A stretch of 45,356 nt of DNA from an uncultured Clostridia bacterium (GTDB lineage: Bacteria > Bacillota > Clostridia > TANB77 > CAG-508). Within the stretch, counting starts at the first letter, position 1. Each line of letters starts with the position of its first letter. The stretch covers positions 1 through 45,356 of the forward strand of contig CANRKJ010000018.1 of assembly GCA_947631185.1 (NCBI GenBank), in the 5' to 3' direction. The notes under the pieces were generated by a model that saw only the letters and a list, made by a program, of their open reading frames with translations, was not told the DNA's origin and ran no database searches. Below, in pieces: positions 17,997 through 45,356 of this stretch. A program made the translations under genes and the position numbers.

Positions 17997-18045
17997 TATG
18001 ATAATCACCACCTATTCTTATTGATAAATATCAAAAATAAGTTTA

Positions 18046-22745: not shown

Positions 22746-22837
22746 TAATATCGTCATATTTATATATTAAAAAAATAATAACCATGTATTTATGTCAGAT
22801 ATAATAATTTTTATAATAAAAAATATGTTATATATTT

Positions 22838-23341
22838 TGCGGGCGCCCGATGAGCGCCCCTACATTTTCCAATTACAAAATATACATATTTTTATAAAAT
22901 TAAAAAACACACGAATCTCTGTATGGGCGTTCATTGGACGCCCGAAAAAATTTAAATTACAAAATATACATGTTTTTATAAAATTAAAAAACACACGAAT
23001 CTCTGTAGGGGCGTTCATTGGACGCCCGAAAAAATTTAAATTACAAAATATACATGTTTTTATAAAATTAAAAAACATACGAATCTCTGTAGGGGCGTTC
23101 ATTGGACGCCCGAAAAAAAATTAAATTACAAAATATACATGTTTTTATAAAATTAAAAAACATGTGAATCACTGTAGGGGCGTTCATTGGACGCCCGCAA
23201 AAAATTAAATTACAAAATATACATGTTTTAATGTTCATATATTTTTCAGGTGCCAATTCATTTTTAAAACGATTATACATTTTTTATAAAATAAAAAAAA
23301 CATACGAATCTCTGTAGGGGCGTTCATTGGACGCCCGCAAA
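22838..23341 (+). repeat. Tandem array of 84-bp units with GC-rich hairpin cores
   Basis: Five direct cores GGGCGTTCATTGGACGCCC start at 22925, 23009, 23093, 23178 and 23318, spaced 84, 84, 85 and 140 bp; the last interval holds about 55 extra bp (near 23228-23282). Each core folds as GGGCGT/ACGCCC. They are joined by nearly identical AT-rich linkers containing TTACAAAATATACATG and TTTATAAAATTAAAAAACA. A sixth core at 22841-22859 (GGGCGCCCGATGAGCGCCC) is inverted, although the linker after it is in the direct orientation. Open frames across the array on both strands are repetitive artefacts. No other gene is seen between 22746 and 23430. Confidence 0.9.
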
Positions 23342-24482: not shown

Positions 24483-27400
24483 TTAAAATTTATAATAATT
24501 ATTTGGATCAATATCATTTCCATATCCACTAGCATTTCTCATTTCAAAATGTAAGTGATGTCCTGTAGAGCTTCCTGGATTAGGGTCTGTATTTGGATCT
24601 CCACCTTCTAACCCTATTGTTTGTCCTTGTGTTACTTGTTGTCCAGATTGTACATCAATTCTTGATAAATGTGCATAGAAACTATATATTGTTTCCCCAT
24701 TAACAACATGTTTTATTTCCACACAATTTCCAAATCCTTTTTGTACTCCAGCAAATGTTACTTCTCCATCAGCTATTGATAATACTTCACTATGATGTGT
24801 AACTCCTAAATCAATTCCTGTATGTCTCTTTGTTTCTCCTGTTATTGGATGTACTCTAGTTCCATATGGTGATGTAATTGTGTATTCAGATTTTGTTGGA
24901 AGTATTAAGCCATTATTAGTTCCTAATTGAATAGCATTATAAGTATTTATTCCATTCAATTGCTGTTTAACCCATGTTTGACTTTCTGCAATCTTTCCAT
25001 AATTTCCTTTTAAAATATTTCTATCTTCTACATCAATTACTCCATCCTCATTTAAGTCATATATTACATTTTCATCTTCATCATTTATTATAGTTAATCC
25101 AAATTTATTATTTAAAGCAACTAAATCATCTATTTGAATTTCATCTGATTTAATAATATCACCAGCATAAATATTAGTATCTCCTAAATCTATATCTTCA
25201 TCAAGTTCTATTCCTAATATTCTATAATCTAAATATGAGTCTTTAACTATTAATAAATCATATTTTCCTTTAGGAAGTTTCATTTCATATGTTCCATCTG
25301 GTTGAATTTCTACTCTAGTTATCACAGCTCTTGCATTATCAGGTATTTCTGCATTTTCTTCTCTTTGGTCATTGCTATCATATACAATAATTGTTGCACT
25401 TTGGTTAGACTGATCTTTAGCTTGTGTTATTATTTTACCTTTTAGGTTCAATCTTTTATCAATTTTTACTGTATATTCTTTCTCATTGCCATTTAAAGAT
25501 TCTACCTTAATTATTATTGTTTTTTCTAGTTCATTTGTCATGTCTATTGTATTTGTATTAGTACCTCTAGTTTTTGTATTATTATCTATTGATACAAATG
25601 CCAATTCTTGACTTGCCTTAGCATCTAATTTAACTTGATTTTCATTATTTAATAGTCTTACTAAATAAGTTCCATCATCTTGAGCTTTTACAACTTCATC
25701 ATTTGCTTTTAATTCTGCTAATATAGCATCCTCATCAGATTTCCTTACAATTATTAAATCTTCTTCTATCTCTTCACCATTACCATTTTGTGCATATACT
25801 TTAACTTTAGTTTGTTCACCTTCTAATGCTACTGATTGTTCTATATATCTTTTTACATATTCTGAACTATTTATTTTTACATTTGTTGTATTTGAACTTG
25901 CTAATACTCCTACTAAAGCACTTGCATCATTTTGTTCAACTGTAGCTATATATAAGCCATCTGGTGATTTAGTAATTGTTTCACCATTTACAGATATTGT
26001 TAATTGTAAATCTGATAAATCTTCTTTTTTATCTACAAATGTTATATTTAATTTGTAAATTTTTTCGGTATAATCTTCACTTGTATCATCTGTCATATTA
26101 GCAACTTTAATGTTAATAGTTAAACCATTACTTAATTCATAACCTTTTAATGTATCTTGTGCTAATGTTAAATTATTTTTATATATTGAAACATATTCTT
26201 TACTATTATATAGAATTGCATCTATATCAATATTAGTCGTTCCAGTAAGAACATCTATAGTATATTCTTCATCACTTATCTTTGTTGCTAATCTACCATC
26301 TACTAAAACTTCTTTTAATGTTAATTCTTCTGGTTCTCTATAAATATGTACAATATAATTTTTGATATTTCCTGAAACTGATTTTACATTAACTACTATA
26401 GTTTTCTCATCTTGTCCATCTAAAGTAATAGTATTAGTATTTCTTGATGATGTATATGCATTTCCATTAACACTTACTTTTGCGTATTCATAATTTGCTA
26501 CACCTGTAATAGTAACTTCATTTGCATTTTTATTTACTTCTATACTGTATGTACCATCATCATTTGCATCTACAATTCCTTGTGTCTTAGCTCCACTTCC
26601 GGCAATCAATTCTTTTAATTTAGCATCATATACTTTCTCTGTTTCCTTAATTATAATAACTTGATATTGTCTAACAGTTTCATTTCCGTTTTTTACATAA
26701 ACCATTCTTTCTGTTTCTGTTTTATCCAAGCTTAATAATTCAGTATCAGATGGATTCTTATAATCGCCTTCACCTATTCTTATACTTGATGTTAAACTAT
26801 CTATTCCTGCCCAAAGCACAGCTGAAGTCTTGTTTGCCTCTACTACTTTAATATATTTTCCTTCAGAATCTGGATATATTACTTCACCATCTACTCTAAT
26901 TTCTGGAGTTAAATCTTCCAATTCATTCTTAGTTTTCGTAATAACTAAATTATATTCTTTTGATTTTGTCATATTATTATTAGAAACTTTTATTGGAATT
27001 TCTGTTACTTCTCCAGTTAAAATGTGACCATTATACTCGTTTTCTTTTAGCTTTTCTTTATTATTATCTATTTGTACATATTCTGTTTCAATACATGCAG
27101 TAGCTTTAATATTTGCAGTTGTACTATTGTAATCAATATCTATACTATACTCGTTTTCTCCTGTTTTCTTAGCATATCTACCATTTACGTAAACAGCTTC
27201 TAAGTCTAATGATTCACGTTTTCTATTTATTTCAACTGTATACTCTCTTGTTGTTCCACTTACAGATGTTACTACTATTGTAAGTACCTTTTTATCTCTA
27301 TTTTCCATAGAAATCGTTTTTGAATTTACATGTTTAGTTTGTGCATTTCCTTCTATAGAAACTTTTGATGTTACATATTTTGCTGTTGCTACTAAATCAA

Positions 27401-30400
27401 CATTAGTTACATCTTCATCAATTTCAATATAATATTTACCATCTTCTGCAGGGTCAATTAAAACTTTATTTGCAAGTAGAAATTCTAGTGATGCATCATC
27501 AGTATTTTCTCCATGTTTAACAATATATAATGTATATTCTTTTTCTTCGTTATTTCCATTTTGTACTTTTATTTTTACTTCTGTTACAGAATCATCTAAA
27601 ATTATGTCTTTTGATGCAGATACTGGTTGTAATCCAGTTTCATCTTCTTGTTTTACATCTATTATATTTACTTTTGAAGTTTCTGAATTTACTCCAGCCC
27701 ATACATTTGCCTTTACTTTACCAGGATCAACAATCATTATATATGTTCCATCAGTATCTTGCATAGGTGGTATTCCATCAACAGTTATACTCAATTTTAA
27801 ATCATCTAGTATAGTTGTTTTTTCTACAATTCTTAATGTATATTCTCTATTATTTTGTTGAGTACTATCATATACTATTATTTTAATTTCATTGCCATTT
27901 TCTAATAAATAATTATTATATATTGCTTCATGTTGTGTCAAATCTCTTTCATAAATTTTAACTAATGAATCATCTTTAACAGTTATTGCTTTTATATTAA
28001 CACTTGTAGTACCTTTTTTAACATCAATTTCATAAGTTTGATCATCAACCTTTTTAGCCATTCTATCATTTACTAATACTGAATCTAATGATAATTCATC
28101 TTGTTCTCTTACAATATTTACTGTGTATTCTTTTGATATTCCTAAAATTGATGTTACAACAACTTTAACTGTCTTTTTATCAATTCCCTTCATATCAATT
28201 GTATTTGTATTAGTTCCACGTGTTGCTTCATTTCCAGCAATACTTACTCTTGAATATTGATATTTTGCTTGTGCACGTAATTTTACACTTTCTGCATTAT
28301 TTTCAATACTTACTAAATATGTACCATCACTACCAGCAGTGACTTCTTTTTCATCAGCAAATAAATGTAATAATCCTGTTTCATCAAGTGGATCTGTATT
28401 TTTTATAATATATAAAGTGTATTCTTTTGTTTCTTTAGCACCATTTTGAACTGTTATTTTAACTTCAGTTACATTATTTGTTAAATTTACAACTTTTTGA
28501 CTAAATGGATATTCATATTGTGTCTCTGAATTATCTGTTTCAATTTTTACTAGTGATGTTTCTGAATTTACACCAGCCCATACAACAGCATCTAGCTCTT
28601 CTGAATTTACAATTGCAACATATTTTCCATCTGCATCTGGCTCGATTATATTATCATCTACTTTTATTGTTACTCTTAAATCATCTAGAATAACAGGTTC
28701 ATCTATTTCTTTAATTATCAATGTATAATCTTTTTCTTGATCAACCTCATTATCTGGTCCAAATAATGCTGTTACTCTAATATTAACTACTCTACTACTA
28801 ATATCACAATCTTCATAAGTATTTTGTGATAGTTTACGTGTATTTTCATTTATAGATACATATTCAATACTCTTTTTAGCAATTGCTTTTATATCTGCAT
28901 TTAGTTTATCTTTTTGTACATAGATTTCAAATGTATTTTCATCTACTCTTCTTGCAATTCTATCATCTAGATAAACTTTGTCTAAACCTAAATCATTTTG
29001 TTGTTTATGTATTATTAAACTACATGTTTTTATAGTTCCATCTTGTGCTTTTACAGTAATTGTTCTTACTGTATCACCTACTTCAGATAAATTAATTGTT
29101 TCTTCTAATTCTCCTGTATGTTCATCTCCTCCTATATCAACTTTTGCACGAGGATCCTCTAAAGTTATATTAACCTTTGCAGTTCTTTGACTTGCTTTTA
29201 CTTTTGTCTCATAATCTCCATCATCATTTGGTGTTATTACATTACCATCTACTTTAACAGTAGTGATATTTGTAATATCTGGTATTTTTGCAAAAATTAT
29301 ATTATATGTTTTTGTTTTTGTTCCATCTTGTGATCTTATTAATATAGGCACAGTAGCTGATTTATCTTTTACATCAAATTCTATTGTTGTTAATAATCTT
29401 CCTTCAGCACTATTATTTTCTCCTATTCCAATTACTGCGTAAGGATTTTCTGCTATAACTTCTATAACTGCAGAATTTTTTGATTGTGGTATTGCATAAA
29501 CATATGTTGGTCCATTATCTAAAGTTTCAAACTTATCAATTATCTCTAAGCCATCAACTTTAATACTACTTGCATTTGCATTATCAGACTTTCTTAAAAT
29601 TCTTATTGTATATTCTTGAGTTTTACCTGTTTCTGCAATTGCTGTAAATCTTATAAATGCTTCTTCTTTTCCAGTTATATCAATTTTTCCTGTTGATAAT
29701 ACACCTTTTGATACAATACTTTCATCATCACTTTCTGAATCATTTTCTAATCTTAATGATGTATGTGAATTATTAGCTTGAATAGCAAACATTACTTCAT
29801 TTATATCTTGGTTAACAAATGCAGTATATGTATGTGTTTCTCTGTCATAGTATTTTAATTCATCTTCAAAATATTTTACAGATTTTATTGTTACATCATC
29901 AGAAAGTAAATCAATATATAATTTCTTAGATAAAGTTTCACCTTGACTACATTGTGGCATAACTTTTATATCTAATTCAAAATGTCTATTTTCTTCCGTA
30001 AAATCAACATTGTGTGTTGCTACATGCTCTTCAGGATTATTTGATCCAATCTGTACACGAGCTTTATTATTATTTGAAGTTACTTCAACATATGCAGTTT
30101 GGTCTGGTTTTCCATTATCTATTACAATTGCTCTATAATCTCCATTTTCGTCTTCTATAATTAAGTTATCATTTACTTTTACAGAAAGTATAGAACTATC
30201 TAATGACTCTTTAATAATTTTTACAGTATATTTTTCTACAGTTTCACTTTCAGATGTTACTATTACTTCTAATGTTGTTTCTTCTTGTGTTGTTATAACT
30301 TCTTGATGAATAATATGTTTTTCTCTTTCTCCTGCTATTTCAACTATTGCATTTTCATCTGTTGTTGTTACATCTATAGTTGATTCATCTAATTCTCTTG

Positions 30401-33400: not shown

Positions 33401-36400
33401 CTTTAAATATTGTAAGTGTATACATTACTGATTTTCCACTTTCAGATGTTACTTTAATTGGAACAACCTTTTTAATTCTATTTAACATATTTACTGTTCT
33501 TATAGATTGAGAAACTTCATCAATTGCATTTTCTATACTTACTTTTGCTGCTGAATCTCTTGTTACAGCTTTTACTAATGGTCTTGTTACTTCATCATCT
33601 ATAATAATTTCATACTCTGTTGGTCCAACTGATTTAGCATCTACATCATCAACTGTTAAGCTTTTTAAACCAACATCTTCTGAAACTATTTTTATAGTCA
33701 ATGTGTAATTCATTACCCTATTATTTGTTGTTTTTACTTTTATTGTTAATGTTGTAGGATTTTCAGTTAATGTAATTGTTTCTTCTAATATTCCAGCTGA
33801 ATACGTATTACCAGAATTTATACTAATTGAATCTGTTATATCTTTAGTAGTTATTCTTATATCTCCTTGGTTATCTGGTTTTACTACTACTGAAACTTCA
33901 TATTTATTTTCACCTACAAGTTTTGCTTCTTTATCATTTACATATATTTTATCTAATCTTTGTTCATCTAATTGTTGTACAACTCTTAAAGCTTTTGCAG
34001 TAGCTTTAGTCATTTTATCTGTTGCAGTTATTATAGTCTCACCCATATCTTGAGAAGTAATTACACCATTTTTTACTTCTGCTACTTTTGGTTTACTTGA
34101 CTCCCATTCAAAATCTGTTAATTTTCTTTCTACATTATTGAAGACATTAAACATATTAGTTTCTATTTTTACTGTTTCTTGTTCAGGATTTTCCATAATT
34201 CTAGCTTCTGGTATAATCTTGAACTCTCTATCTCCAACTAATGTAAATACATAACTATTATCATATAAACTATTTCCTAATTGTCCATATGAGTTATTTC
34301 CAACACTATATACAAATCCATCGCAATCAATTGCATAGTTATTATTATATCCAGATCCTATTGTAAAATATTGTTTTCCATCAGATTCTATTTGAGTTAA
34401 TCCAACTGATCCTGTTACATATCCAATTCCTCCTTGACCTGATGAATTGTCTCCATATGTATAAATATTTCCATCTTTATCTAATAACATTGTACATAAT
34501 GCACTACTACTTATATCTACCATATTTTCAGATGCAATTGTACTTTGTACTATATCATCATCTTTAGCATATTTTTGTATCAATACAACTTTTCCATCAT
34601 TTTTTAATACAACAATTGCATTTTCCATACACTGAGCTTTTACAGCATCTTGTATATTTACTAATTGAGGTACTGTATAGTAAGGGTTAAGTTCAGGATT
34701 TATTGTTTGTCCATAACTATCTGTATTATGTTGATGTTTTGAAATTTGCTCTTTACTATTATCACCAAATACATATACATGTCCTTCTGAATCAACAAAT
34801 GTAGTTAAATTTCCACCTGCTGATATAGATATTATTTCATTTTCTATTGTATTAATTCTTTCTGGCATTGTTACTGTTGTTGTTTTTCCATTTCCTAGTT
34901 GTCCAGAGCTATTTAATCCCCATGTATAAACATTTCCTAATACATCTAATGCAACAACATGATTATATCCTACTGCTATATCTTTTATATTAGATAATTT
35001 TTGTACTTGAGTTGGTTTTCTAACTGATGTTCTATTTCCTTGACCTAATACTCCATACGTATTATCTCCCCAAGCCCATACTGTTCCATCATTTCTTAGA
35101 GCTACTGTAAAGCTTTTTCCTACAGCAATCTTCTTATATGTATATAGTATATTGGCTTGACTTGGAATATTTATTGGGAATAATTCATCATTTCCTAATT
35201 GTCCATCAGAATTATAACCAAATCCCCATAAAGTACCATCTGCTTTTAATACACCAGCGAAGTTTTCTCCTCCTGCTACTTGTGGTGCATATTTAGCATC
35301 TTCATCTATAACTCTTACAATTATTGTGTTTTGTTTTCCTGTTTTTGTTTCTATTGCTTTAACCCATGTTGTTCCAACTTTTTTACCTGTTATTAAGCCT
35401 TCATCACTAACTTCTGCAATATCACCATTTAATGACTCATATGTGAAATCATCTATTTCTTCATTTTCTTTAAATACATTAAACAAGAATTTTGGTGTAA
35501 TTGATATTTGTTTTGTTCCATTAACTTTTAGTGTTACTTCTCCTTCATCTGCATATGATGAATCATTTCCTATTTTTACAGGTATTGCACTATTTGTTTT
35601 AGTTTTTATTGCCTGTAATCCATGATAATAATCTCCCCATCCATACACATCACCTGAATAATCTATTGCAACATTATATGTATTTCCAGCTGACACACTC
35701 ATCATATCATTTACTTTGGTTATTTCTGTAAATACTACTGTATCATCATAGCTTCCTATTCCTAATTCTCCTCTTGCATTAGCTCCTGTTGAATATAATA
35801 CTCTATTTTCTCCTAATAATACTGTATGACTTTCTCCTGCAGATATTTTCATTATTTTTGGAATAGATGATGTTATTTTTGTTGGTTTTGATTCATTATA
35901 TGTACTTCCAGTTCCTAATTGTCCATTTAAATTATATCCAAATGTATAAACTTCTCCTTCTGTAGATAAAAGTACACTATGATTATCTCCAGCTGATATT
36001 GCACCTATCAATGAATCAACTTCAATTTGTTCAAAAGTATTTGATTTTCCATCTATTTTTGCTGTTTGTCCATATATATTTAATCCTGTTGTTAATACTT
36101 TTCCACTTGTAGTTAATAATAATGTATGATTTTTACCCATAGCTATATCAAATATATCACTTACATATGGTAGCAACTTAGGACTTCTAACTGGCTCATA
36201 AGTTCTAGTACCTAATTCTCCATTTTCATTTAATCCCCATACATATACATAACCATCTTTTGTTAATGCCATACTTTGATCATTATTTGCTGCTATTTTC
36301 TTAATACCTTTTAATTCTAATTGTACTGGTGTACTTGAAGTAAATCCTAATGCACCATTTGAATTATTTCCAAATCCCCAAACATTTCCTTCTGTATCTA

Positions 36401-39400
36401 ATGCTAAATTGTGAGTATTGCCTACTGCAATTTGTTTTATAGTAACATTTTGTGGGAATTTAACTTGTACTGGTATGTCTGAAGACTTAGTTGAACCATT
36501 ACCTAACTCATAACTTGTATTTTGACCATATGTCCAAACTGTTCCATTTGCTTTTAAAACAGTTGTATGTGAACCACATGTTAATGCCATAGGCTCTATT
36601 TTTACATCTTCAGGTAATACAGTTACTCTAGCTATACTATTATAATTTGTTCCTTTTTTATTTACTACAATAGTTGTTGTACCTTCCTTAACACCTGTTA
36701 CTAATCCACTTTGTGTTACTGAAGCAATTGCATTATTTCCTGATGTATAAGTCATTTCACTATTATCTATAACATCTTTTAATACATTAAATGTTTTATT
36801 TGTTACAACTATTTGATGTTCTTCATCTTTATGTAGAATTATATCGTATTCGTCTAATCCTACATCTTCTCTACCTACTATTGATGGTGTTGGAGTATTA
36901 CTGTATAGTTTATTTCCTAGTACTCCATTTTCTCCTTGACCCCAAGCATATACAAATCCTTCAGTATCAATTATTGCTCCATTCTCTGTACCTGCTGTTA
37001 CAAACAAAGCTTTTTCAATATTTTCATTTAAAAGTGGCAATGACTGATTAGTTGATTGTAATGTAGCAAGTTTATAATTATCATTAGCTCCCCATACATA
37101 TGTATCTCCTGTTTCTAATAGAGCTATAGAGAATTCATTTCCTGCTTTAATATCTTTTATTCCAGTTAAAATCTCTTCAGAGGCGCTCTTAATAAAGCTT
37201 GGGTTTTCTTGATTTTCTGAAATACCTAAACCTAATTGTCCTTTTGAATTATCTCCAAAAGCATATGCTTTTCCATCATCTCTTAATAAAATTGTATGAT
37301 TTTTTCCTTGTGATACTCTAATTACATTTTCTGCCGTTAATTGTTTGCCAGTATCTAATAAATATACTTCTCCTTTTACATTTACTGCATATTCTTGTGA
37401 AATATCTATTATGTCACTTATACCATTAACTCTTACAGCAGTTTCGCCTATTCCATATCCACAATAATATACATTTCCATCTGTGTCTAAGAATACTGTT
37501 CTATTTTTTCCACCAGCCACTTTTACAATTTTGGTTAATGGTGAACCATCTGGTTTTATTACTTGTACAGGTTCATTTCTAGATGTTCTTGTTCCATCTC
37601 CTAGTTCTCCATATCCATTATATCCAAAGCCCCATACTGTTCCATCTTCTTTTACATATATTGTGTTATATTCTCCTACAGCTATATCTATTACGTTTTC
37701 TGCTTCAGCTACACGTACTGGTGTTGCTTTTTCATCATTATCTCCTGTTCCTAATTGTCCATAAGTATTTTTTCCCCATGTCCATACTGTTCCATCTGCC
37801 TTTAATGCTGATGAATGTGTATTTCCAATTTCTACCTCAGGAACTGCAACTTTATCATCTGGAACAACTGAAACAAATACTATTGCTGTTTTATGTGATT
37901 TTTCGTGTGTTACTACTATTTCTGTTTTTCCTAGTTTCTTACCTGTAATTGTTCCATCATTAGATACTGTTGCAACTTTTGGATTTAATGATTTATAACT
38001 CATATTACCAGAATCTACTTTATCTTGAATTAGATTAAACTTATTATCTAATGAAGCACTTATTTGTCTATATTCATCTTCTTTTACTGATACTACATTT
38101 GAATCAACATGAACATATGTATCTCCTATTACTTTAAATATATTTTGATTATCATATGTTCCGTTTCCCAATTGTCCTTCATGGTTATATCCTGTTGTAT
38201 ATACAAATCCTGAATCATCTGATATTACTGAATGATATGCATTTGTGCTTATAATTTTTACGTAATTTACATCTTTAGCTTTTGCTGTATATACAACATT
38301 AGCTGTATTTGCTCCAACTCCTAATTGTCCATATCCATTATATCCACATCCATATAATGTTCCATCTTTTGTTGTCATCAATAGCATATTCTTTCCAGCA
38401 GATATTTCTACAACATTTTCTAAAGGTACAAATTCTTCTGATTCATTTTTAATCTTAACTTCAGTTGGTATATCTACACCATTAGTATTTGATTGTCCTA
38501 ATTGTCCATTTCCATTATATCCCCATGCCCAAACTTTTCCATCAGCATCTAATGCAGTGTAGAAACTATCTCCAGAAGCAATTTCAACTATATTAGATAA
38601 TTCATTTATTCTTGATGGATTTTGATTTAAATACCATACTGTTCCATCTTCTGCAAGTATTAAGCTTCCTGTTACAGATATTGCTTTTTGGTAGAAATTC
38701 AATTTAGTTGGTACTGCACTATATTCAGCTCCCCATACATAAATTTCTCCATCTTTATTTATTGCAATACTTGTATTTCCACTTATAAATATTTTCTTAA
38801 TTTCACTTAATCCTTCTATTTTTGTTGGAATTAGTAATTTTTCAGTATTTCCATTTCCTAACTGTCCATATCCATTATAACCAAAACTCCATACATTTCC
38901 TTTTTGATCTAATATCAAGTTATAATAATATCCTGCAGCTATATCTACTATACTATCTAATTTTGCTCTTACTTTAGTTGTTGTAGTTACAACTGAGCCT
39001 TCATCATCAACTTCTTCAAGAACTTGAGTATATTCTCCCTCTTTAATTTGAGTTGGTTCTGTTATTTTTATTCCATTAGCTACTCCATTACCCATTTGGC
39101 CATTTGAATTATCTCCCCATGCCCAAACTGTTCCATCTTGTTTCAAAGCTAAAGAATGTATATGTCCTGTTACTACTTTTTCTACAGTCTTTTTATTATC
39201 TCCAATTACATCTACAACTACTCTTGTTTTATACTCATAACCTTTTGCTTTTACCGTTATATATGTTCTTCCTAAATTTAATACTTCTACTTGTCCGTTG
39301 GTTTCTCCAACAGTTGCAACATTTGGGTTTGAACTTTCATACTCAAATCCATTATTTTGAGCTGTATCATATAATAGGTTAAATCCATATACCGTTTTTG

Positions 39401-42400
39401 GATTTATTTGATATGTTTGATCAGAAAGTTTAAGTGTTACCTGTGTTTCATCTAATGTTATATATTGTGTTGATATACACTCGATATTTTGTTTATTATC
39501 AAAACTTCCATCACCTAATTGTCCATATCCATTATATCCAACACTCCATACTGTTCCGTCATTTTTAGCATATTCTGCATTATGTGTTCCTCCTGATACA
39601 ATCATAACATCAGTAAATTCTTCACCTTTTTCATCTTTTACATATGTTGCTACTTCCTTAGCATTTCTATCTGTTGATATTATTTGATTATAATCATTTA
39701 ATCCCCATGCTAAAACTTTTTCATTAGAATCTACTGCATATCCTGCATAATATCCTAAATCAATTGAAGTTATATTCTCTAAACTTCCTTCTTCAGCTCG
39801 TAATTGTTGTGGAATTGGTCCTGATATACCTGTAAGCATATTGTAATCATTGCATCCAAATCCCCAAACAGATCCATCTAATTTAAGTACAATTGTTGCA
39901 TTTACTGGACTTGCTGAAACTTCTGCTATATCTTCTATTGTATTTAATTTTGTAAATTTATTTTTATCACTTGTTGTTCCATCACCTAAGTTTCCATAAC
40001 CATTATATCCAGCTACCCATAAATTATTTTCACTATCTATGGCAAAACTTGATACATTTGAAGCTTCTATTTTTGTTATATGTTCAAGAGATTCTACTTT
40101 AGTTGGTAATGTTCTTCCTAAATTATCACCTAATCCTAGATTTCCATAAGCATTATATCCCCATGCATACACATTGCCATCTTTATCTAAAGCAAGTGTA
40201 TAACTATCACCAGCTGCAACAGAAATAATATCTTCTAAGAATCCATCTCCTTCAGGTGACTTTACTTGAACTTTTGTATTACTATTATTGTAAGTTCCAT
40301 CTCCTAATTGACCATTATTATTATTTCCCCATGTCCATACATGACCTTTTGTATCAACTGCTACAGCATGTGTTCTTCCTAAAGCTATTTTTACAATATT
40401 ATTTATTCCTGTATATGTTGGTAATTTTTTATTATATGTATCACCTGTTCCCAGTTGTCCATTTCCATTGTATCCATAACTCCAAACTTCACCATTAGCT
40501 TTTAATGTTACAGTTGAATTATTATAACTTTCAATTTGTGGGAAAGTTATATCAGTATCATCTAAAACAAATACATCTATAGTTGCACTTTGATTTGAAA
40601 TTGTATCTGTAACTGTTAATTGTGTTTTACCTTTTTTTACTGATTTTATAACTCCATCGCTTTCTCCAACAGTAGCAATATCGTCATTTTTCATTTTATA
40701 CTTAAATTCATAGTTATCTACTTTATTATATAATAGATTAAATCCTTGAACCATATTTGCATTTGTTTGTTGTGTCTTATTTATTCCTTTAATTCTAATT
40801 GGAGATTCTTCAAAGTTTATTTTTGATTTACTTATACATGTAAATACTTGTTTATCCTTATTTGAACTATCTCCCATTTGACCATTATTGTTTCTACCAC
40901 ATGTCCATACAGTTCCATCTTCAAGTACTACAGCTATTGTTTCTGCACTTCCTGCTACATCAAAAATCTTGCTTATTGTATCTCCTTCAGTACTATACTT
41001 TAATGGTATTGGTAGTAGATTATTATCTTTGCTTCCATTTGCACATTGACTATATGAATTTTGTCCCCATACTACAGCTGTATTATCATTTTTTATTGCT
41101 ATAGCATATTGGTTACCAGCTTCTATTGATTTTACATCTGTCAAATAAACAGCATTATCACTAATCTCATCACCATCAAAGCTTTCTATTACTTTACCAA
41201 AAGTATTTCTTTGTGTAGTAGTTTTATTACCTAAGTTTCCATAACCATTATATCCAGATGCCCATACATATCCAGATTTATCAACTGCTAAAACTGTATA
41301 ATCCTCTACTGCAACATCTACTATATCTGAAAGTTGTATATTTTCTGTTGGCATAGTTAAATTGCTTTCATTTCCTGTTCCTAATTGTCCATTTCCATTA
41401 TATCCCCATACATATAGTTTTCCATTACCATTTATTGCAACTACTGTTTGATTTTTACTAGCAATTTTAACTATTCCTTTTAATTTTATTTTTGATGGAA
41501 CACTCTTAGTAATTGTTGTACCATTTCCTAATTGTCCATTTCCATTATATCCCCATGTATATACACTTCCATCTTTTGTAAGAGCTATAGAACTATATGA
41601 ATTTGCAATAACTTGTATTACATCATCTAATTCTTTTATCTCAACTGGTTTATTAGTATCTCCATCTCTACCTAATTGACCATAGCTATTTGAACCAAAT
41701 GAGTATACTTTACCATCTTTTGTAAGTATTAAAGTATGGTTTTCTCCAGCTGATATATCTACTACATCAGATATATTTATTTTTGTTGGTTTATATCTTG
41801 TTGCATTATCACCTAAACCTAATTGTCCTTGGCTATTTGTACCCCATGTCCAAACAGTTCCATCAGATTTCAAAGCTACAAAATATTGAGAACCTCCTAC
41901 TATTTTAGGCATAGCTATATCTTCTTTTCTTAATACATCTACTGTTACTAAAACTTTAGTATCTAATTTATTAGTTGAAACTTCTATCTTAGTAGTTCCA
42001 TAGTCTTTAGCTGTTACTAAACCATTTTCATCAACATTTGCAATTTTTTTATCTTGACTTTGATAACTTATTTTTTCACCATCTACTTCATAAAATAATA
42101 AGTTAAATCCTAAATCTGTTGAAGCATTTATTTGCTTACTTATATTGTCTGTACCTAAATTTAAAGTTATTTTTTGATTATCAACTGTAAAGCTTGAATC
42201 TGAAATACTTGTAGGGTTAATACTTGAAACAGTTAATTCATCTCCCATTTCACCATTTGCATTATATCCTACTGTATATACTACTCCCAAACTATCTGCA
42301 ATTGCTGATGTTTGAGTTGATTCTTTTTGTGTTGATGCTATTGCTATTATATTTTTATCTTCTTGAACTTTAGTTAAATATGCTTGATCATTTTTATCTT

Positions 42401-45356
42401 TTGTAAATAATTGTCCATAATTATTCCATCCTGCTACTAAAATACCTGCTGATTTCTTTTCTTTTCTTGTTCCATCATCTGTTGTTTCTTCTGTTGTTGT
42501 TTCTTCAACACTTAAAATACTTGCATATCCTTCTGCTGATGCATGTTTAATTTTAGAAACTGGATTTTTTTCTTTATCTAACATCTTAACAGGTAAATGT
42601 TGTTCAGTAGTATTTCCAGTTGCTAATTGTCCATATCCATTATATCCAACAGCAAGTGCATTTCCTTCTTCTGTTACCATAATCGTATGTATTTTTCCTG
42701 CTGAAATTTCTTTAATATTACGTAGAAAATCTGTGTCATTTTCATTTCTCATTTGTGTTGGAGTAACAACTGTATTTGTTTTTCCTGTTCCAAGTTGACC
42801 ATTTCCATTATATCCAACTCCCCAAACAGTTCCATCTGCATCTAACATTGATAAGTAATTTTCTCCTGCTGAAATTTGAATTATGCTAAATACTTTTTGA
42901 ACTCTTGAAGGAAGCATATGTGCTGAACCATCTGTACTACCTATTCCTAATTGTCCGTATCCATTATATCCCCATGAATAAACTCTTCCATCTTCAGAAA
43001 GTGCATATGATGTTAAATATCCTGCAGAAACTGCTACTATATTTTTTAAACCTTCTGTTCCAGATGGGTCTTGAACTTGTACAAATTCATTTGAATCTAC
43101 AGTCGTACCATTACCTAATTGTCCATATCCATTGTTTCCTGTTGCCCATACTGTTCCATCTGATTTTAGAACAACAGTATGATTATATCCTGCAGCTATA
43201 TCTACTGCATATGTTTCTTCATCTTTATTTAATGCATCATATATATTAGTCTTTGTTGGTTTTGTTTTTACAGCATTATCACCCAATCCTAATTGTCCAT
43301 AGGTATTATAACCCCATGTCCATACTTCTCCATTGGCTTTTAATGCAACAAAGTGATTTCCTCCACCTACTATTTTTGGATATGTTTTTCCTTGTTCACC
43401 TGTTACGTTTACTTTTACTCCTGCATATATATTGTGAGTTGTATTTTTTACTCTAATATTTGTAGTACCTATTCCAGTAGCCTCAACTATACCAGATTTA
43501 TCAACTGTTGCAACACTTTCATCTAATGACTCAAATGTGCAATCACCTTTATCAACTGTATTATATAATAAGTTAAATCCTGTTGAAACACTATATTCTA
43601 TTTGTTCACTTTTCTCTCCTGCTTTCTTAAAGTTAATTACCGCTGGTTTAACTTCTAATTTAGTATTACTAATACACCAAGGAGCATAATTTGTTTCTAA
43701 TGTTCCATTTCCCATTTCTCCGTTTGCATTATATCCTACTGTATATACCATACCATTTTTATCTGCTATTGCTCCTGTAGTATTTCCACTCCATATGTCA
43801 TTATATTTTGTTATTCCCATTGTTAATATATCTTTGTCTGTTTGTACTAATTGTGGATAAGCTACATTATCACCTGCTTTTTCCAAGAATAATTGTCCAT
43901 TATCATTTCTTCCCATTACATATATTCCAGCTTCTCCATTTTTTTCTTTTACTGAAATATATGTTTCATTTCCTGATGCAAGAATATGGTTTGCATTTTT
44001 TATTGATTCTGTTTCTAATTCTGCATTTTCTTCAACTGGTTCAACTTTAGTCCTAATCTCTTTTATAACATTATAGCTTCCACTTGCAGTACCTATTCCT
44101 AGCTGACCATATCCGTTATATCCTACAGCCCATACTGTTTCATCTTCTTTTAATACTACTGTATGATTTGTACCTGCTGATACTTCTTTTACTTTTCTTA
44201 AAATTTTTATACCATCTGAGTCTTTCATTTGTTGTGGTAATCTATGATCAGAAGAATCACCTGTTCCATAATTTCCATTGCCATTAGATCCAACTCCCCA
44301 TACACTACCATCTGCATCTAGCATTACTATAAAGTTTTCTCCACCAGATATTTGTATTATATTTGATACTTTTTGCATTTTTACTGGGTAAAGATTTACA
44401 TCACCTGCAGTATTTGTTCCAAATTGTCCATAGTGATTGTATCCCCATGAATATACTTCTCCACTCTCTGTTAATGCATGTGCTGTGTTATATTCAGCTG
44501 TTATCTGTACTATATTTTTTAATACACCTTCTCCATTTGGTCCTAATACTTGAGTAAATACATCTCCATCATTAGTTGTTCCATCACCTAATTGTCCATA
44601 TCCATTATATCCTGTTGCCCATACTGATCCATCTTTTCTTAATATAAGTGAGAATCTATATCCTGCTGCTATATCTATTGCATCATTTATTGTTGTTATA
44701 ATTTCTTCATCTTGTTCATTTACAGTTTTTATTTTAATTTGCTCTGGTTCAACTCTTCTATTTTTATCTCCTAATCCTAATTGTCCACTGCTATTTAGTC
44801 CCCATGTCCATACTGTTCCATCTGCTTTTAATGCTATAAAATGATTACATCCTCCAACTATTTTTGGTTGTATTTGTCCTTGTTTTCCATTTACATTTAC
44901 TTTTACTCCAGCCCATATATCATTTTCTTCATTATGAACTTTCACATAAGTATTTCCTATACCTTTAGCAGTTACAACTCCTGATTCTTCATCTACTACT
45001 GCAATTTCTTCATCTAATGAACTGAATTTATATGTTTGGTTTTCTAATTCATCTTTCAATAAATTGAATCCCATAGTCATTTTACATTCTATTGTTTCAC
45101 CAGTTTCTTCTGGCTCTTTATAATTGATTATTTTAGGGTCAACTTCTATTTTTAGTTTACTAATACACCATGGATTTAATAGATTTTCAACAGTTCCATT
45201 TCCAATTTCACTATTTCCATTATATCCTACTGTATATACCATACCATTTTTATCTGCTATTGCTCCTGTAGTATTTCCACCCCATATATCATTATATCTT
45301 GTTATTGCCATTGTTAATATATCTTTATCTGTTTGTACTAATTTTGGATAAGCTTC
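24483..45356 (-). CDS. Giant multidomain surface-type protein: RCC1/Ig modules, cadherin-like array, dockerin-like and M23 peptidase (5' partial)
   Basis: At least 6957 codons without a stop. The frame is open to the right edge: 15 codons (EAYPKLVQTDKDILT) precede the ATG at 45311 and match an internal repeat, so that ATG is not the start. Counting from 45311: residues 1 to about 3785 hold RCC1 repeats (e.g. VWTWGYNTYGQLGLGDN) in nine blocks, each ending in a Big_2-like Ig domain; about 3785-6620 hold some 29 cadherin-like beta-sandwich units; about 6620-6715 is a carboxypeptidase-regulatory-like fold; about 6715-6785 is a dockerin-like pair; about 6805-6942 is an M23 peptidase with HTGIDLG, YAHLS and HLHFE, the complete zinc and catalytic set. 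Such enzymes cut peptidoglycan cross-bridges. No LPxTG or C-terminal membrane anchor is present; signal peptide and N-terminal anchor would lie outside the window. It may be an adhesin, a cell-wall remodelling stalk or a contact-dependent lysin. Confidence 0.9.
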   Translation of the reverse strand, partial: EAYPKLVQTDKDILTMAITRYNDIWGGNTTGAIADKNGMVYTVGYNGNSEIGNGTVENLLNPWCISKLKIEVDPKIINYKEPEETGETIECKMTMGFNLLKDELENQTYKFSSLDEEIAVVDEESGVVTAKGIGNTYVKVHNEENDIWAGVKVNVNGKQGQIQPKIVGGCNHFIALKADGTVWTWGLNSSGQLGLGDKNRRVEPEQIKIKTVNEQDEEIITTINDAIDIAAGYRFSLILRKDGSVWATGYNGYGQLGDGTTNDGDVFTQVLGPNGEGVLKNIVQITAEYNTAHALTESGEVYSWGYNHYGQFGTNTAGDVNLYPVKMQKVSNIIQISGGENFIVMLDADGSVWGVGSNGNGNYGTGDSSDHRLPQQMKDSDGIKILRKVKEVSAGTNHTVVLKEDETVWAVGYNGYGQLGIGTASGSYNVIKEIRTKVEPVEENAELETESIKNANHILASGNETYISVKEKNGEAGIYVMGRNDNGQLFLEKAGDNVAYPQLVQTDKDILTMGITKYNDIWSGNTTGAIADKNGMVYTVGYNANGEMGNGTLETNYAPWCISNTKLEVKPAVINFKKAGEKSEQIEYSVSTGFNLLYNTVDKGDCTFESLDESVATVDKSGIVEATGIGTTNIRVKNTTHNIYAGVKVNVTGEQGKTYPKIVGGGNHFVALKANGEVWTWGYNTYGQLGLGDNAVKTKPTKTNIYDALNKDEETYAVDIAAGYNHTVVLKSDGTVWATGNNGYGQLGNGTTVDSNEFVQVQDPSGTEGLKNIVAVSAGYLTSYALSEDGRVYSWGYNGYGQLGIGSTDGSAHMLPSRVQKVFSIIQISAGENYLSMLDADGTVWGVGYNGNGQLGTGKTNTVVTPTQMRNENDTDFLRNIKEISAGKIHTIMVTEEGNALAVGYNGYGQLATGNTTEQHLPVKMLDKEKNPVSKIKHASAEGYASILSVEETTTEETTDDGTRKEKKSAGILVAGWNNYGQLFTKDKNDQAYLTKVQEDKNIIAIASTQKESTQTSAIADSLGVVYTVGYNANGEMGDELTVSSINPTSISDSSFTVDNQKITLNLGTDNISKQINASTDLGFNLLFYEVDGEKISYQSQDKKIANVDENGLVTAKDYGTTKIEVSTNKLDTKVLVTVDVLRKEDIAMPKIVGGSQYFVALKSDGTVWTWGTNSQGQLGLGDNATRYKPTKINISDVVDISAGENHTLILTKDGKVYSFGSNSYGQLGRDGDTNKPVEIKELDDVIQVIANSYSSIALTKDGSVYTWGYNGNGQLGNGTTITKSVPSKIKLKGIVKIASKNQTVVAINGNGKLYVWGYNGNGQLGTGNESNLTMPTENIQLSDIVDVAVEDYTVLAVDKSGYVWASGYNGYGNLGNKTTTQRNTFGKVIESFDGDEISDNAVYLTDVKSIEAGNQYAIAIKNDNTAVVWGQNSYSQCANGSKDNNLLPIPLKYSTEGDTISKIFDVAGSAETIAVVLEDGTVWTCGRNNNGQMGDSSNKDKQVFTCISKSKINFEESPIRIKGINKTQQTNANMVQGFNLLYNKVDNYEFKYKMKNDDIATVGESDGVIKSVKKGKTQLTVTDTISNQSATIDVFVLDDTDITFPQIESYNNSTVTLKANGEVWSYGYNGNGQLGTGDTYNKKLPTYTGINNIVKIALGRTHAVAVDTKGHVWTWGNNNNGQLGDGTYNNSNTKVQVKSPEGDGFLEDIISVAAGDSYTLALDKDGNVYAWGYNAYGNLGLGDNLGRTLPTKVESLEHITKIEASNVSSFAIDSENNLWVAGYNGYGNLGDGTTSDKNKFTKLNTIEDIAEVSASPVNATIVLKLDGSVWGFGCNDYNMLTGISGPIPQQLRAEEGSLENITSIDLGYYAGYAVDSNEKVLAWGLNDYNQIISTDRNAKEVATYVKDEKGEEFTDVMIVSGGTHNAEYAKNDGTVWSVGYNGYGQLGDGSFDNKQNIECISTQYITLDETQVTLKLSDQTYQINPKTVYGFNLLYDTAQNNGFEYESSNPNVATVGETNGQVEVLNLGRTYITVKAKGYEYKTRVVVDVIGDNKKTVEKVVTGHIHSLALKQDGTVWAWGDNSNGQMGNGVANGIKITEPTQIKEGEYTQVLEEVDDEGSVVTTTTKVRAKLDSIVDIAAGYYYNLILDQKGNVWSFGYNGYGQLGNGNTEKLLIPTKIEGLSEIKKIFISGNTSIAINKDGEIYVWGAEYSAVPTKLNFYQKAISVTGSLILAEDGTVWYLNQNPSRINELSNIVEIASGDSFYTALDADGKVWAWGYNGNGQLGQSNTNGVDIPTEVKIKNESEEFVPLENVVEISAGKNMLLMTTKDGTLYGCGYNGYGQLGVGANTANVVYTAKAKDVNYVKIISTNAYHSVISDDSGFVYTTGYNHEGQLGNGTYDNQNIFKVIGDTYVHVDSNVVSVKEDEYRQISASLDNKFNLIQDKVDSGNMSYKSLNPKVATVSNDGTITGKKLGKTEIVVTHEKSHKTAIVFVSVVPDDKVAVPEVEIGNTHSSALKADGTVWTWGKNTYGQLGTGDNDEKATPVRVAEAENVIDIAVGEYNTIYVKEDGTVWGFGYNGYGELGDGTRTSRNEPVQVIKPDGSPLTKIVKVAGGKNRTVFLDTDGNVYYCGYGIGETAVRVNGISDIIDISQEYAVNVKGEVYLLDTGKQLTAENVIRVSQGKNHTILLRDDGKAYAFGDNSKGQLGLGISENQENPSFIKSASEEILTGIKDIKAGNEFSIALLETGDTYVWGANDNYKLATLQSTNQSLPLLNENIEKALFVTAGTENGAIIDTEGFVYAWGQGENGVLGNKLYSNTPTPSIVGREDVGLDEYDIILHKDEEHQIVVTNKTFNVLKDVIDNSEMTYTSGNNAIASVTQSGLVTGVKEGTTTIVVNKKGTNYNSIARVTVLPEDVKIEPMALTCGSHTTVLKANGTVWTYGQNTSYELGNGSTKSSDIPVQVKFPQNVTIKQIAVGNTHNLALDTEGNVWGFGNNSNGALGFTSSTPVQLELKGIKKIAANNDQSMALTKDGYVYVWGLNENGELGTRTYEPVRSPKLLPYVSDIFDIAMGKNHTLLLTTSGKVLTTGLNIYGQTAKIDGKSNTFEQIEVDSLIGAISAGDNHSVLLSTEGEVYTFGYNLNGQLGTGSTYNESKPTKITSSIPKIMKISAGESHTVLLGENRVLYSTGANARGELGIGSYDDTVVFTEITKVNDMMSVSAGNTYNVAIDYSGDVYGWGDYYHGLQAIKTKTNSAIPVKIGNDSSYADEGEVTLKVNGTKQISITPKFLFNVFKENEEIDDFTYESLNGDIAEVSDEGLITGKKVGTTWVKAIETKTGKQNTIIVRVIDEDAKYAPQVAGGENFAGVLKADGTLWGFGYNSDGQLGNDELFPINIPSQANILYTYKKIAVGKSFTVALRNDGTVWAWGDNTYGVLGQGNRTSVRKPTQVQKLSNIKDIAVGYNHVVALDVLGNVYTWGLNSSGQLGNGKTTTVTMPERINTIENEIISISAGGNLTTFVDSEGHVYVFGDNSKEQISKHQHNTDSYGQTINPELNPYYTVPQLVNIQDAVKAQCMENAIVVLKNDGKVVLIQKYAKDDDIVQSTIASENMVDISSSALCTMLLDKDGNIYTYGDNSSGQGGIGYVTGSVGLTQIESDGKQYFTIGSGYNNNYAIDCDGFVYSVGNNSYGQLGNSLYDNSYVFTLVGDREFKIIPEARIMENPEQETVKIETNMFNVFNNVERKLTDFEWESSKPKVAEVKNGVITSQDMGETIITATDKMTKATAKALRVVQQLDEQRLDKIYVNDKEAKLVGENKYEVSVVVKPDNQGDIRITTKDITDSISINSGNTYSAGILEETITLTENPTTLTIKVKTTNNRVMNYTLTIKIVSEDVGLKSLTVDDVDAKSVGPTEYEIIIDDEVTRPLVKAVTRDSAAKVSIENAIDEVSQSIRTVNMLNRIKKVVPIKVTSESGKSVMYTLTIFKEDALTDLENITVNGEEATKISDYTYKAIIPADAENATVSATSMYHDALVHIDSFGADQHITTQTVATMKDRTIVKIYVTALENEREYTLILDKQGTENNLGLFSVTVNGTEIKPVGEKYIAYVSESTTFVDVTAITLSELDLVSIENSIAQAHETSKRLSIEDKQEFTIRVSNPLDTENYKEYELIIKKPSEDNSLKSITVGNEEFSKEAKLISGTNTYEVNIPEEYEVIDVIAVTNYELSEVSIEDFDFEVNKTTRQVEIGSGEHVEVKVTVKSQNGITQEYILIINRNSSNRNLLKVLVDGDQAVFNEEKNAYEYTLDKTKDKLTIGAITEDENAYVAINTNEKQKNATYRIVEMQGRSIVVFITVTAEDESTQQYKLIVNDVPDNVKLLSVKVNNNEAVPEPTNRYVGKVNKNDKDFVLYVIPEDLKAQVQIEGFDIVQGTTSATINKPGEEVQVKITVIAQNGTKAEYTVVVTNMSDDCSLGMLKVDGEVIEPDENDGNYYVEKPYLTDSVDVEAIASSNTSLVSINGSDEEYERQLSNVTVPKLENEIKVTVTAEDGTKEVHKIIVRRLSNNTELKATVTYETNGILTEKEVSFDSNKKATVKISKTEKVDVKGELTDELATISINGSIEVKAQTTQSVITLDDKTIVTIDVTAQDGTKAVYTITLIKTSNNNNLLSLSATDIEESDIKQTSDNEYEIKMPDTMETLDLTAIAEDENAVVMIQSGEYSENNIAKRKVDVPGDSYDFNIFVKAEDGTDKTYNVKVVKVDDLKLKSVTSNNEECEEESGTYIAYIDADTTEVELSIKTRSEKPHISTRNIEEKDFSAPTLGGTCVLTVQITPGKEETILVKVQDSKYVDRFKIYTIIIKEKSNEAGIEEIKVNDKDVINTVDQYYSTVDKYDQIAKLYIKATEKHAKIQVEKVSDVGIGEFTKEDLPLEVGKYSTYKITVTAQDGKTSKEYTLHLERKSDDTSCTIKINNDNADEIDKETNTYIKYIPRELDESTIDVTTTDENAIVEIAGEREKHIIHQEVITTQEETTLEVIVTSESETVEKYTVKIIKESLDSSILSVKVNDNLIIEDENGDYRAIVIDNGKPDQTAYVEVTSNNNKARVQIGSNNPEEHVATHNVDFTEENRHFELDIKVMPQCSQGETLSKKLYIDLLSDDVTIKSVKYFEDELKYYDRETHTYTAFVNQDINEVMFAIQANNSHTSLRLENDSESDDESIVSKGVLSTGKIDITGKEEAFIRFTAIAETGKTQEYTIRILRKSDNANASSIKVDGLEIIDKFETLDNGPTYVYAIPQSKNSAVIEVIAENPYAVIGIGENNSAEGRLLTTIEFDVKDKSATVPILIRSQDGTKTKTYNIIFAKIPDITNITTVKVDGNVITPNDDGDYETKVKASQRTAKVNITLEDPRAKVDIGGDEHTGELEETINLSEVGDTVRTITVKAQDGTIKTCSLIIHKQQNDLGLDKVYLDDRIARRVDENTFEIYVQKDKLNADIKAIAKKSIEYVSINENTRKLSQNTYEDCDISSRVVNIRVTALFGPDNEVDQEKDYTLIIKEIDEPVILDDLRVTIKVDDNIIEPDADGKYVAIVNSEELDAVVWAGVNSETSLVKIETDNSETQYEYPFSQKVVNLTNNVTEVKITVQNGAKETKEYTLYIIKNTDPLDETGLLHLFADEKEVTAGSDGTYLVSIENNAESVKLRAQAKYQYSRVSIAGNEATRGTNTNTIDMKGIDKKTVKVVVTSILGISKEYTVNIVREQDELSLDSVLVNDRMAKKVDDQTYEIDVKKGTTSVNIKAITVKDDSLVKIYERDLTQHEAIYNNYLLENGNEIKIIVYDSTQQNNREYTLRIVEKTTILDDLKLSITVDGIPPMQDTDGTYIMIVDPGKVKANVWAGVNSETSKVNIIDVKQEDETGLQPVSASKDIILDDSVTEVKIKVQNGNNEEKEYTLYIVKHGENTDDASLEFLLANKVLIDPAEDGKYYIEIDEDVTNVDLVATAKYVTSKVSIEGNAQTKHVNSKTISMENRDKKVLTIVVTSVSGTTREYTVEINRKRESLDLEAVYVNGRYAKKTGENEYSIDIDYNSTTANIKATACIETEYVQIDNNKEKLKENEYNGHILTGEVTEIPIKVSNNNMTKSKEYNLVITKTKNELEDLTPEIRVDGEVIYPDSEGKYIKVVEANKTSAVLWAGIDSLTSSIRIGEGDYKNPSDTELLSLDKTETERMVYVKNGNETVRQYQVIIIKETEKVYDAKLKELIAGSGAKTQGIVDANDDGTYSIEVNKNANEVTITGVANYEYAKVSVNGNAYTSSRNTNTITLDGQDEKTIVVNVKSVSGNIKNYIVHIYREPEELTLKEVLVDGRLATKISDEEYTIDVLTGTTNIDIDAILYNSKEYVSIYKNNLTLAQDTLKGYELSNGLTINIKVANMTDDTSEDYTEKIYKLNITFVDKKEDLSDLQLTISVNGETITKSPDGLYIATVEQNDASALVGVLASSNTTNVKINSSEYVKRYIEQSVALEGEQTKVKVYAQNGNGEEIEEDLIIVRKSDEDAILAELKANDEVVKAQDDGTYLVRLLNNENQVKLDAKASQELAFVSIDNNTKTRGTNTNTIDMTNELEKTIIIKVESLNGNEKEYTVKIDKRLNLKGKIITQAKDQSNQSATIIVYDSNDQREENAEIPDNARAVITRVEIQPDGTYEMKLPKGKYDLLIVKDSYLDYRILGIELDEDIDLGDTNIYAGDIIKSDEIQIDDLVALNNKFGLTIINDEDENVIYDLNEDGVIDVEDRNILKGNYGKIAESQTWVKQQLNGINTYNAIQLGTNNGLILPTKSEYTITSPYGTRVHPITGETKRHTGIDLGVTHHSEVLSIADGEVTFAGVQKGFGNCVEIKHVVNGETIYSFYAHLSRIDVQSGQQVTQGQTIGLEGGDPNTDPNPGSSTGHHLHFEMRNASGYGNDIDPNNYYKF
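25450..28998 (-). repeat. Four three-domain super-repeats at the C-terminal end of the array
   Basis: The last 12 units follow an A-B-C order four times, with boundaries near 28998, 28098, 27214, 26322 and 25450 (period about 870-900 bp). A units start LxLDxVxVNxRxAKK, B units contain an LxxLxxxIxVDG start and WAGVNSET-like strands, and C units contain VSIxGNAxT followed by NTNTI or a variant. This indicates amplification by triplets rather than by single domains. Confidence 0.75.
25450..33960 (-). repeat. Array of about 29 cadherin-like beta-sandwich units
   Basis: Units of about 93-103 residues, each beginning L..L.VNG..A and ending V...DGT..EYTL.I.R.S.. (examples: LKSLTVDDVDAK to YTLTI; LLSVKVNNNEAV to YTVVV). 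This pattern is that of the bacterial cadherin-like beta-sandwich family (Pfam PF12733 type), found in long surface proteins. The units are strongly diverged from each other at the DNA level, except within the super-repeats at 25450-28998. My count of 29 was made by eye. Confidence 0.75.
33960..45356 (-). repeat. Nine RCC1-block plus Ig-like modules, about 1.25-1.5 kb each
   Basis: Each module is a run of roughly six or seven RCC1 repeats (signature GYNGYGQLG, alternating with VWTWG and ISAGENH-like strands), closed by a Big_2-like domain with a GFNLL or FNVF segment and an IATV..G.V.A...G.T.I.V core. The Ig-like domains lie near 45185-44880, 43690-43395, 42210-41930, 40850-40550, 39480-39195, 38140-37855, 36885-36605, 35590-35300 and 34245-33970. 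Seven-strand RCC1 runs normally close into a beta-propeller, so the region may be nine propellers joined by Ig spacers. The first two modules visible are the most alike. Confidence 0.8.

Follow-up and report, generated by a model that had tools for sequence, protein, structure and literature searches.

Polymorphic toxins carry an enzymatic C-terminus on a long exported stalk, and polymorphic toxin and contact-dependent inhibition systems possess a variable C-terminal toxin domain and an adjacent immunity gene. Giant genes of predatory bacteria have reportedly been treated in a preprint as well. The described systems nearest to the locus reported here are, as far as the accessible portions of two sources go, the RCC1 proteins of bee-gut Bifidobacterium and the giants of Apilactobacillus kunkeei (PMC4449606, PMC12863079). 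In honeybee Bifidobacterium, tandem genes encode surface proteins with several RCC1 domains each (2-4 per protein, average 7 repeats), with Flg_new before each domain and an LPxTG anchor, and in the accessible text they are described as generally not positional orthologs (PMC4449606). A. kunkeei possesses a cluster of giant exported proteins, Giant1-5, of 3,000-8,000 aa, which occupies about 6% of a small genome and each member of which is conserved across the species as a positional homolog; RCC1, propeller and peptidase are terms absent from the main text (PMC12863079). A role in adhesion or in attack on other cells was proposed for giant ORFs of Omnitrophota, one of which has nine dockerin domains, according to the available excerpt (PMC10066038). 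Diverse C-terminal toxin domains are reported for polymorphic toxins, where RCC1 occurs once in the text as accessible (PMC3482391), and neither RCC1 nor M23 occurs in the available text of a survey of proteins over 5,000 aa (PMC11573180). The metal-ligand motifs of M23 peptidases are HxxxD and HxH; the LytM domain of PrgK, from the type IV secretion system (T4SS) of pCF10, lacks both, and PrgK reaches about mid-wall only, as stated in the accessible portion of the source (PMC11323569).

The giant protein described here combines RCC1-Ig modules, cadherin-like units and a terminal M23 peptidase. No description of this architecture was found among the titles and abstracts listed in searches of an open-access library. 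The original prediction of an undescribed family holds for the literature searched, but the architecture is not unique: the giants are a family of one clade of Clostridia and are shared by related genomes.

Architecture of the giant frame and its paralog

The window, i.e. the whole stretch of DNA analysed, is the entire contig C18 of 45,356 bases from an assembly of 2.05 Mb in 78 contigs (96.0% complete, 6.5% contaminated). The predicted single frame of about 21 kb was confirmed, with one terminal stop and no inner stop across 6957 sense codons. As the window is the whole contig, the frame is open at its 5' side, and the 6957 codons are part of the gene only. It probably covers about four fifths of a giant exported surface protein, counted from the C-terminus, with the following features.

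24483..45356, minus strand: giant open reading frame of 6957 codons or more, continuing beyond the contig at its 5' side
33969..45356, minus strand: nine RCC1(x7)-Ig modules in a row, of which the first is truncated (own HMMs and Pfam)
25455..33950, minus strand: 29 cadherin-like (PF12733) units (Pfam and own HMMs)
25455..28367, minus strand: ten of the cadherin-like units, absent from the orthologs in genomes G259 and G055, with period-3 self-similarity
25182..25445, minus strand: weak carboxypeptidase-regulatory-like (CNA-B-like) domain, below the Pfam cut-off
24987..25169, minus strand: dockerin-like pair of Ca-binding-type loops, second loop DLNEDGVIDVED (from sequence)
24486..24899, minus strand: Peptidase_M23 at the extreme C-terminus (PF01551 match)
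24810..24824, minus strand: M23 motif HTGID (HxxxD), from sequence
24543..24557, minus strand: M23 motif HLHFE (HxH), from sequence

Repeats were counted with HMMs built on the frame's own repeats. These gave 9 Big_2-like Ig domains and 53-55 RCC1 repeats (55 with weak ones) in eight full blocks and a cut first block, in agreement with the nine modules predicted, of which the first is cut by the contig end. The 29 cadherin-like units agree with the predicted number of about 29, and PF12733 scored 284.8 bits in 11 stretches. The ten extra units show period-3 self-similarity, so local tandem amplification is suggested. RCC1/WD40_RLD, Big_2, Cadherin-like PF12733 and Peptidase_M23 were all far above the Pfam cut-off, as anticipated for the window frame; Big_2 stands between the RCC1 blocks, and no Flg_new was listed by Pfam in the frame. 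PF01551 reached 89.1-89.2 bits against a cut-off of 28.7, and both catalytic motifs are complete, as they had looked to be. The frame ends with ...NNYYKF after M23, with no LPxTG there. The carboxypeptidase-regulatory-like domain scored 13.7 bits in the window and 26.8 bits in the paralog D1 described below, under the cut-off of 32.3 in both. The dockerin-like pair, also part of the prediction, is recognised by Pfam in the paralog: the stretch of D1 passes PF00404 (24.2 bits, cut-off 22.9), but the window copy, whose first loop is degenerate, has no PF00404 match listed at a maximum E of 10, a setting at which HMMER discards the majority of weak matches.

One Ig-RCC1-Ig module (window aa 1047-1599, window 40560-42218) was modelled by AF2 from a 13-row alignment. 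The model shows an Ig domain, a seven-bladed propeller and another Ig domain (pLDDT 89.3, pTM 0.85). Foldseek gave UVR8 as its best match (E 3.7e-35), along with HERC2, RPGR and RCC1. The suggestion that the RCC1 blocks form beta-propellers is thus upheld by this module, and from the repeat counts and this one model about 7 repeats are predicted to close each seven-bladed propeller, as in RCC1-like proteins. The AF2 model of the C-terminal part was too poor for use (pLDDT 51.9).

Elsewhere in the window, type I restriction-modification HsdM and HsdR are found at the opposite contig end (230-4506, minus strand), and an Amidase_3 gene (N-acetylmuramoyl-L-alanine amidase) lies several genes downstream of the giant (16686-18011, minus strand). 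One frame of a short internally repeated stretch at 22771-23283 reads as repeated peptide-like units, GRPKKFKLQNIHVFIKLKN being an example. Contig C24 has a stretch of like appearance, with RPMSAHT/NERPY, at about 5947-6354, and this is perhaps an interspersed repeat.

A second giant frame was found in the same genome.

C21 5527-37074, minus strand: paralog frame D1 of 10,515 codons, with the same architecture as the window frame

D1 possesses 17 Ig domains, 114 RCC1 repeats and 23 cadherin-like units by own-repeat HMMs, with no inner stop in its 10515 codons. The window frame and D1 keep 7/8 module indices at about 39% identity; the two genes are therefore old paralogs. Just downstream of D1, at C21 1-4929, a frame of 1,643 codons with Met at codon 10 and an N-terminal export segment runs off the contig. 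The own giant frames together take about 57 kb, i.e. 2.8% of the assembly. At least 139 RCC1 matches were found in the genome, lying only on C18 and C21 among the matches listed (150 of 190 candidates scored), and an RCC1 match was absent from 14/14 control genomes. M23 gave 10 matches in the genome, two of them in the giant frames on C18 and C21. With two giant frames and the N-terminal fragment, the genome thus has two giant N-termini and two giant C-termini. The last full module of the fragment is most similar to window module 8, the first full one of the window (50% identity), and fragment and window frame very probably belong to a single gene, made up of about 8,600 codons and a gap missing from the assembly, which is estimated at about 440 bases if only one module is incomplete. 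As the ends of C18 and C21 share no exact overlap of 16-400 bases in the orientations tested, we infer this joining.

Eleven N-termini, two own and nine from relatives, were chosen by hand as complete-looking. Each of them shows a basic stretch, in many cases M-K-x-S-K-K, and after it a single hydrophobic segment of about 19 residues, with a 19-residue mean hydropathy of 1.75-2.55. That D1, the probable N-terminal fragment of the window gene and nine relatives all start in this way speaks for the predicted export of the stalk. Several N-termini may be compatible with a signal-peptidase site, so the tether may be cut.

Distribution of the family and order of its modules

The predicted architecture was surveyed in Clostridia genomes. 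The tail region (176 aa) matched at E<=0.001 in 33/390 genomes of the taxonomic family, in 10 of its 39 genera. The match lies in a frame of at least 2,000 codons in 18 of these 33 genomes, as counted from the match list, and the longest frame has 11,453 codons; the others are short frames and often weak matches. With a 335-column tail profile and up to five candidates scored per genome, 56/385 genomes of the order matched at E<=1e-30 and 10/391 genomes of the class at E<=1e-40. Outside the taxonomic family, the matches listed were M23-only, in frames of 199-301 codons. The family is rare in its own genus: among the matches listed for 53 genomes, giant frames were found only in the own genome. 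A pattern scan of genome contigs gave six loci, four in Clostridia MAGs (one from goat colon) and two in Flavobacteriaceae, the latter M23-only. The genomes are not all independent, as G053 equals G508, G055 equals G481, and G011, G053, G055 and G286 appear to correspond to the four MAGs. G011 has tail-family fragments with a stop and without RCC1.

Counting the window frame and D1, 21 frames extend into the tail and have M23, and 20 of these show the same arrangement of an RCC1/Ig array, 4-29 cadherin-like units, a dockerin-like stretch and M23. The exception, G085_C2, has an extra RCC1-Ig block after the cadherin-like units. Several members, for the most part shorter ones (G162, G085, G167, G132 C22 and G290), possess in addition unassigned stretches of about 330-480 residues in the N-terminal part. 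In L061/G166, L066/G150 and L074/G246 the frames end after the dockerin-like stretch without M23; for these only the last stretch of the frame was considered, and a frame break is possible. Two further relatives depart from this arrangement.

G452, C10 30255-48746, minus strand: relative of 6163 codons which stops after the dockerin-like stretch and lacks M23, with eight RCC1-Ig blocks and 24 cadherin-like units
G110, C6 29033-51052, plus strand: relative of 7339 codons with different spacing

Because some relatives end without M23, the stalk seems to matter on its own. Downstream of the G452 giant stand two large frames of 1871 and 1529 codons with a hydrophobic tail. In G110, M23 is separated from the dockerin-like stretch by other repeats (GLUG-like by eye). 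The giants of G085 (C14 near 23425, C1 near 158686), G162 (C1 near 62618) and G202 (C2 70371-101879) are broken by frame changes or a stop, and the frame change occurs at the same relative position in two G085 paralogs. These interruptions may be pseudogenes, assembly errors or phase switching.

The modules of one protein are diverged from each other, their best matches averaging 35-37% identity. Between D1 and its counterpart in G302, every RCC1-Ig module (16/16) and every cadherin-like unit (23/23) had its closest match at the corresponding index. Against G132, 13/16 modules of D1 kept their index, the last three being shifted by two inserted modules, and the cadherin-like units agreed in 23/23. 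The window frame kept 7/8 modules at the same index with G259, which has seven, and 5/8 with G055, which has five; window cadherin-like units 11-29 match units 1-19 of both in order (19/19 in G259, at a fixed offset of 10). Order agreement was weak between the window and G053 (2/8 modules) and between D1 and G354 (4/16). dN/dS was 0.48 for window-G259, 0.48 for window-G055 and 0.38 for D1-G302, with dN below dS in 8/8 segments of each pair. These three orthologous pairs thus appear to be under purifying selection with the modules keeping their place, and since module order persists across genera, selection seems to act on the order itself. A chance frame or an assembly artefact was rejected on positional orthology together with dN<dS.

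Four in-genome paralog pairs showed a whole-frame dN of 0.17-0.57 and dN/dS of 0.38-0.82, with dN>dS in one segment; their alignments are rough owing to unequal module numbers. The dN of M23 in the same four pairs was only 0.015-0.059. By these values, the hydrolase appears as the constant part within a genome and the stalk as the part diverged among paralogs. Between genomes M23 is less constant, with a dN of 0.14-0.27 against 0.36-0.41 overall, so the sameness within a genome may be due to gene conversion of M23, which we consider likely.

The M23 domain and the genomic neighbours

HxGID was present in 21/21 tails taken apart, including that of the window; these tails had been selected on G.HLHFE close to the end, which leaves HxGID as the one independent test. 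The closest relatives of solved structure, judged by sequence, are further M23 peptidases, e.g. 3slu and 6muk. The motif-complete tail domain is a probable peptidoglycan hydrolase.

In trees, M23 of the giants grouped with stand-alone M23 proteins, apart from the housekeeping M23 sampled (97/97; later tree 98/93), and a housekeeping origin was rejected on this ground. The first tree placed a long housekeeping row (L046) among the giants, and one VirB4-linked row (L125) was on the side of the housekeeping M23. The second tree was built without L046, L004 and L127, the last being the G110 giant, and duplicate and partial rows were dropped before both. A third tree with all rows, 6 of them housekeeping, showed no resolved sister group for the M23 of the giants, and descent from T4SS enzymes is therefore a lead only.

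A VirB4-like gene is close by in 19/25 stand-alone M23 loci (14/20 and 5/5 in two sets) and absent near 6/25. The 25 loci are mostly the better-scoring of 48 stand-alone M23 matches counted in the order and class searches, and the VirB4 model was built from three of the set of five loci, two of the five being near-identical. Pfam found a TraG P-loop in all three model loci, CagE/TrbE/VirB in one, and TrbL beside one. The two giants of the own genome are not encoded beside a VirB4-like ATPase gene, which would mark a T4SS hydrolase; only their M23 domain is akin. No T4SS families were found among the 16 window proteins scanned, and the four C21 frames of at least 150 codons are two giants and the neighbour proteins B and C.

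Neighbours were searched in stretches of 14 genomes, many of them cut by contig ends, with models built from some of the same stretches. Protein B, a Big_3 array with a C-terminal membrane segment, and the small single-pass protein C were near giants in 6/14 genomes (own, G302, G354, G162, G167 and G290). Protein E (CAP/YkwD) was also near giants in 6/14 (G053, G259, G290, L053, G162 and G085). B, C and E were not found in the window, and E also not in C21. A cohesin-like start of B was suspected from the letters and rejected, as Pfam gave Big_3 only. A PepSY-like tail in protein C scored only below threshold (best E 0.059, 2/5 members), and the protein has no convincing PDB relative. No immunity gene was identified in these neighbour stretches. 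Two cohesin-like proteins are encoded elsewhere in the own genome.

C31 11899-12717, minus strand: cohesin-like protein of 272 aa, match over cut-off, repeated by hmmscan
C24 1329-2264, minus strand: cohesin-like protein of 311 aa, match over cut-off, not repeated by hmmscan

Both end in a sorting-signal-like tail (by eye). Four dockerin matches were found in the own genome, on C40, C24, C2 and C21, that on C21 being paralog D1, and the genome perhaps holds a small cohesin-dockerin set.

Possible function and comparison with known systems

Our best explanation, which we put forward tentatively, is that the giants are adhesion and recognition rods whose end carries a peptidoglycan hydrolase acting in contact. 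The chain would leave the cell through Sec, stay attached at the N-terminal hydrophobic segment and project from the surface as a rod some 150-250 nm long, a rough estimate at the low end of the hundreds of nanometres predicted. The propellers would be position-specific binding surfaces for adhesion or recognition. M23, last to leave the cell and situated at the far end, would cut peptidoglycan where the end of the rod touches a wall. The most useful target would be the wall of another cell, and the tethered hydrolase would be active only in contact. M23 may plausibly act on neighbouring cells, and in that case the tail enzyme, a plausible contact-range peptidoglycan hydrolase, would represent a new kind of tethered wall-cutting tool. 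The existence of M23-less relatives counts against attack, as does the fact that no immunity gene is proven. A more elaborate version is speculative and unlikely as a whole: the giants would be a contact weapon or feeding tool of small-genome Clostridia, in which tandem membrane-tethered rods of up to about 200 nm bear an ordered, non-interchangeable string of up to 19 propellers recognising the target cell and a conjugation-type hydrolase at the target wall, with the Big_3 membrane protein, the PepSY-like membrane protein and the CAP protein as accessory or self-protection parts.

M23 could also serve the producer itself. The rod would then be an adhesin for host glycans, food particles or partner cells, and M23 would only open the producer's own wall for passage of the chain, as conjugation hydrolases do for the channel in the donor wall; we regard this as possible but rather improbable. 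The VirB4-like gene close to related stand-alone M23 in 14/20 and 5/5 loci agrees with it, as does the proposal, in the accessible part of the source, that PrgK makes room in the donor wall (PMC11323569), and relatives lacking M23 are expected if the stalk function is the core. But M23 would exit the cell last, and a tool that opens the way would be badly placed there; the G452 giant is still 6163 codons long without M23, which is therefore not needed for passage there; and the trees do not resolve a descent of the giants' M23 from T4SS enzymes.

The topology might, less probably, be reversed. With the signal segment cleaved, the C-terminus would be held at the own wall through the dockerin-like stretch and a wall-anchored cohesin and/or through M23 on peptidoglycan, and the propellers would form the outward tip. 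Consistent with this doubtful arrangement are the 2 own-genome cohesin matches over cut-off with sorting-signal-like tails (hmmscan repeats that on C31 only), the 4 dockerin matches including D1, the lack of LPxTG after M23 in the window frame, and N-termini some of which allow cleavage by eye. Against it, the window dockerin-like stretch has a degenerate first loop and no listed Pfam match, the cohesin-dockerin pairing is putative, and a motif-complete M23 is an odd anchor.

The giants were also considered as polymorphic toxins. This was rejected, as no variable warhead was found within genomes and M23 is almost unchanged in four in-genome paralog pairs with diverged stalks; the tails compared had been selected as ending in M23, a domain that some relatives lack. 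That the locus is a degenerating or mis-assembled repeat gene without function is highly improbable: the contig ends inside repeats and relatives G011, G085, G162 and G202 show frame changes or stops, but the module order is the same in other genera, dN/dS is 0.38-0.48 over thousands of codons, and no stop occurs in 6957 and 10515 codons.

The giants share features with several described systems. They differ from polymorphic toxins, as portrayed in the available text, in that within a genome it is the C-terminal enzyme that stays constant (PMC3482391). The excerpted Omnitrophota giants differ in that most have few annotated domains, and that of V. archaeovorus has 39,678 aa with 42 predicted transmembrane helices (PMC10066038). 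Giant1-5 of A. kunkeei are built differently, from beta-solenoid domains, helical repeats and DUF5776 tails in the part of the source available (PMC12863079). Like PrgK, as accessible in its source, the giants have an M23/LytM domain exported from a monoderm cell; unlike it, they keep both motifs on a far longer stalk, T4SS hydrolases being short (PMC11323569). The VirB4-linked M23 proteins share the M23 group of the giants but are short as well. With the Bifidobacterium RCC1 proteins, going by the accessible text, the giants share several RCC1 domains of about 7 repeats per protein; they differ in having neither a C-terminal LPxTG nor Flg_new in the window frame, in a cadherin-like rod and M23 that go unmentioned there, and in a conserved module order (PMC4449606).
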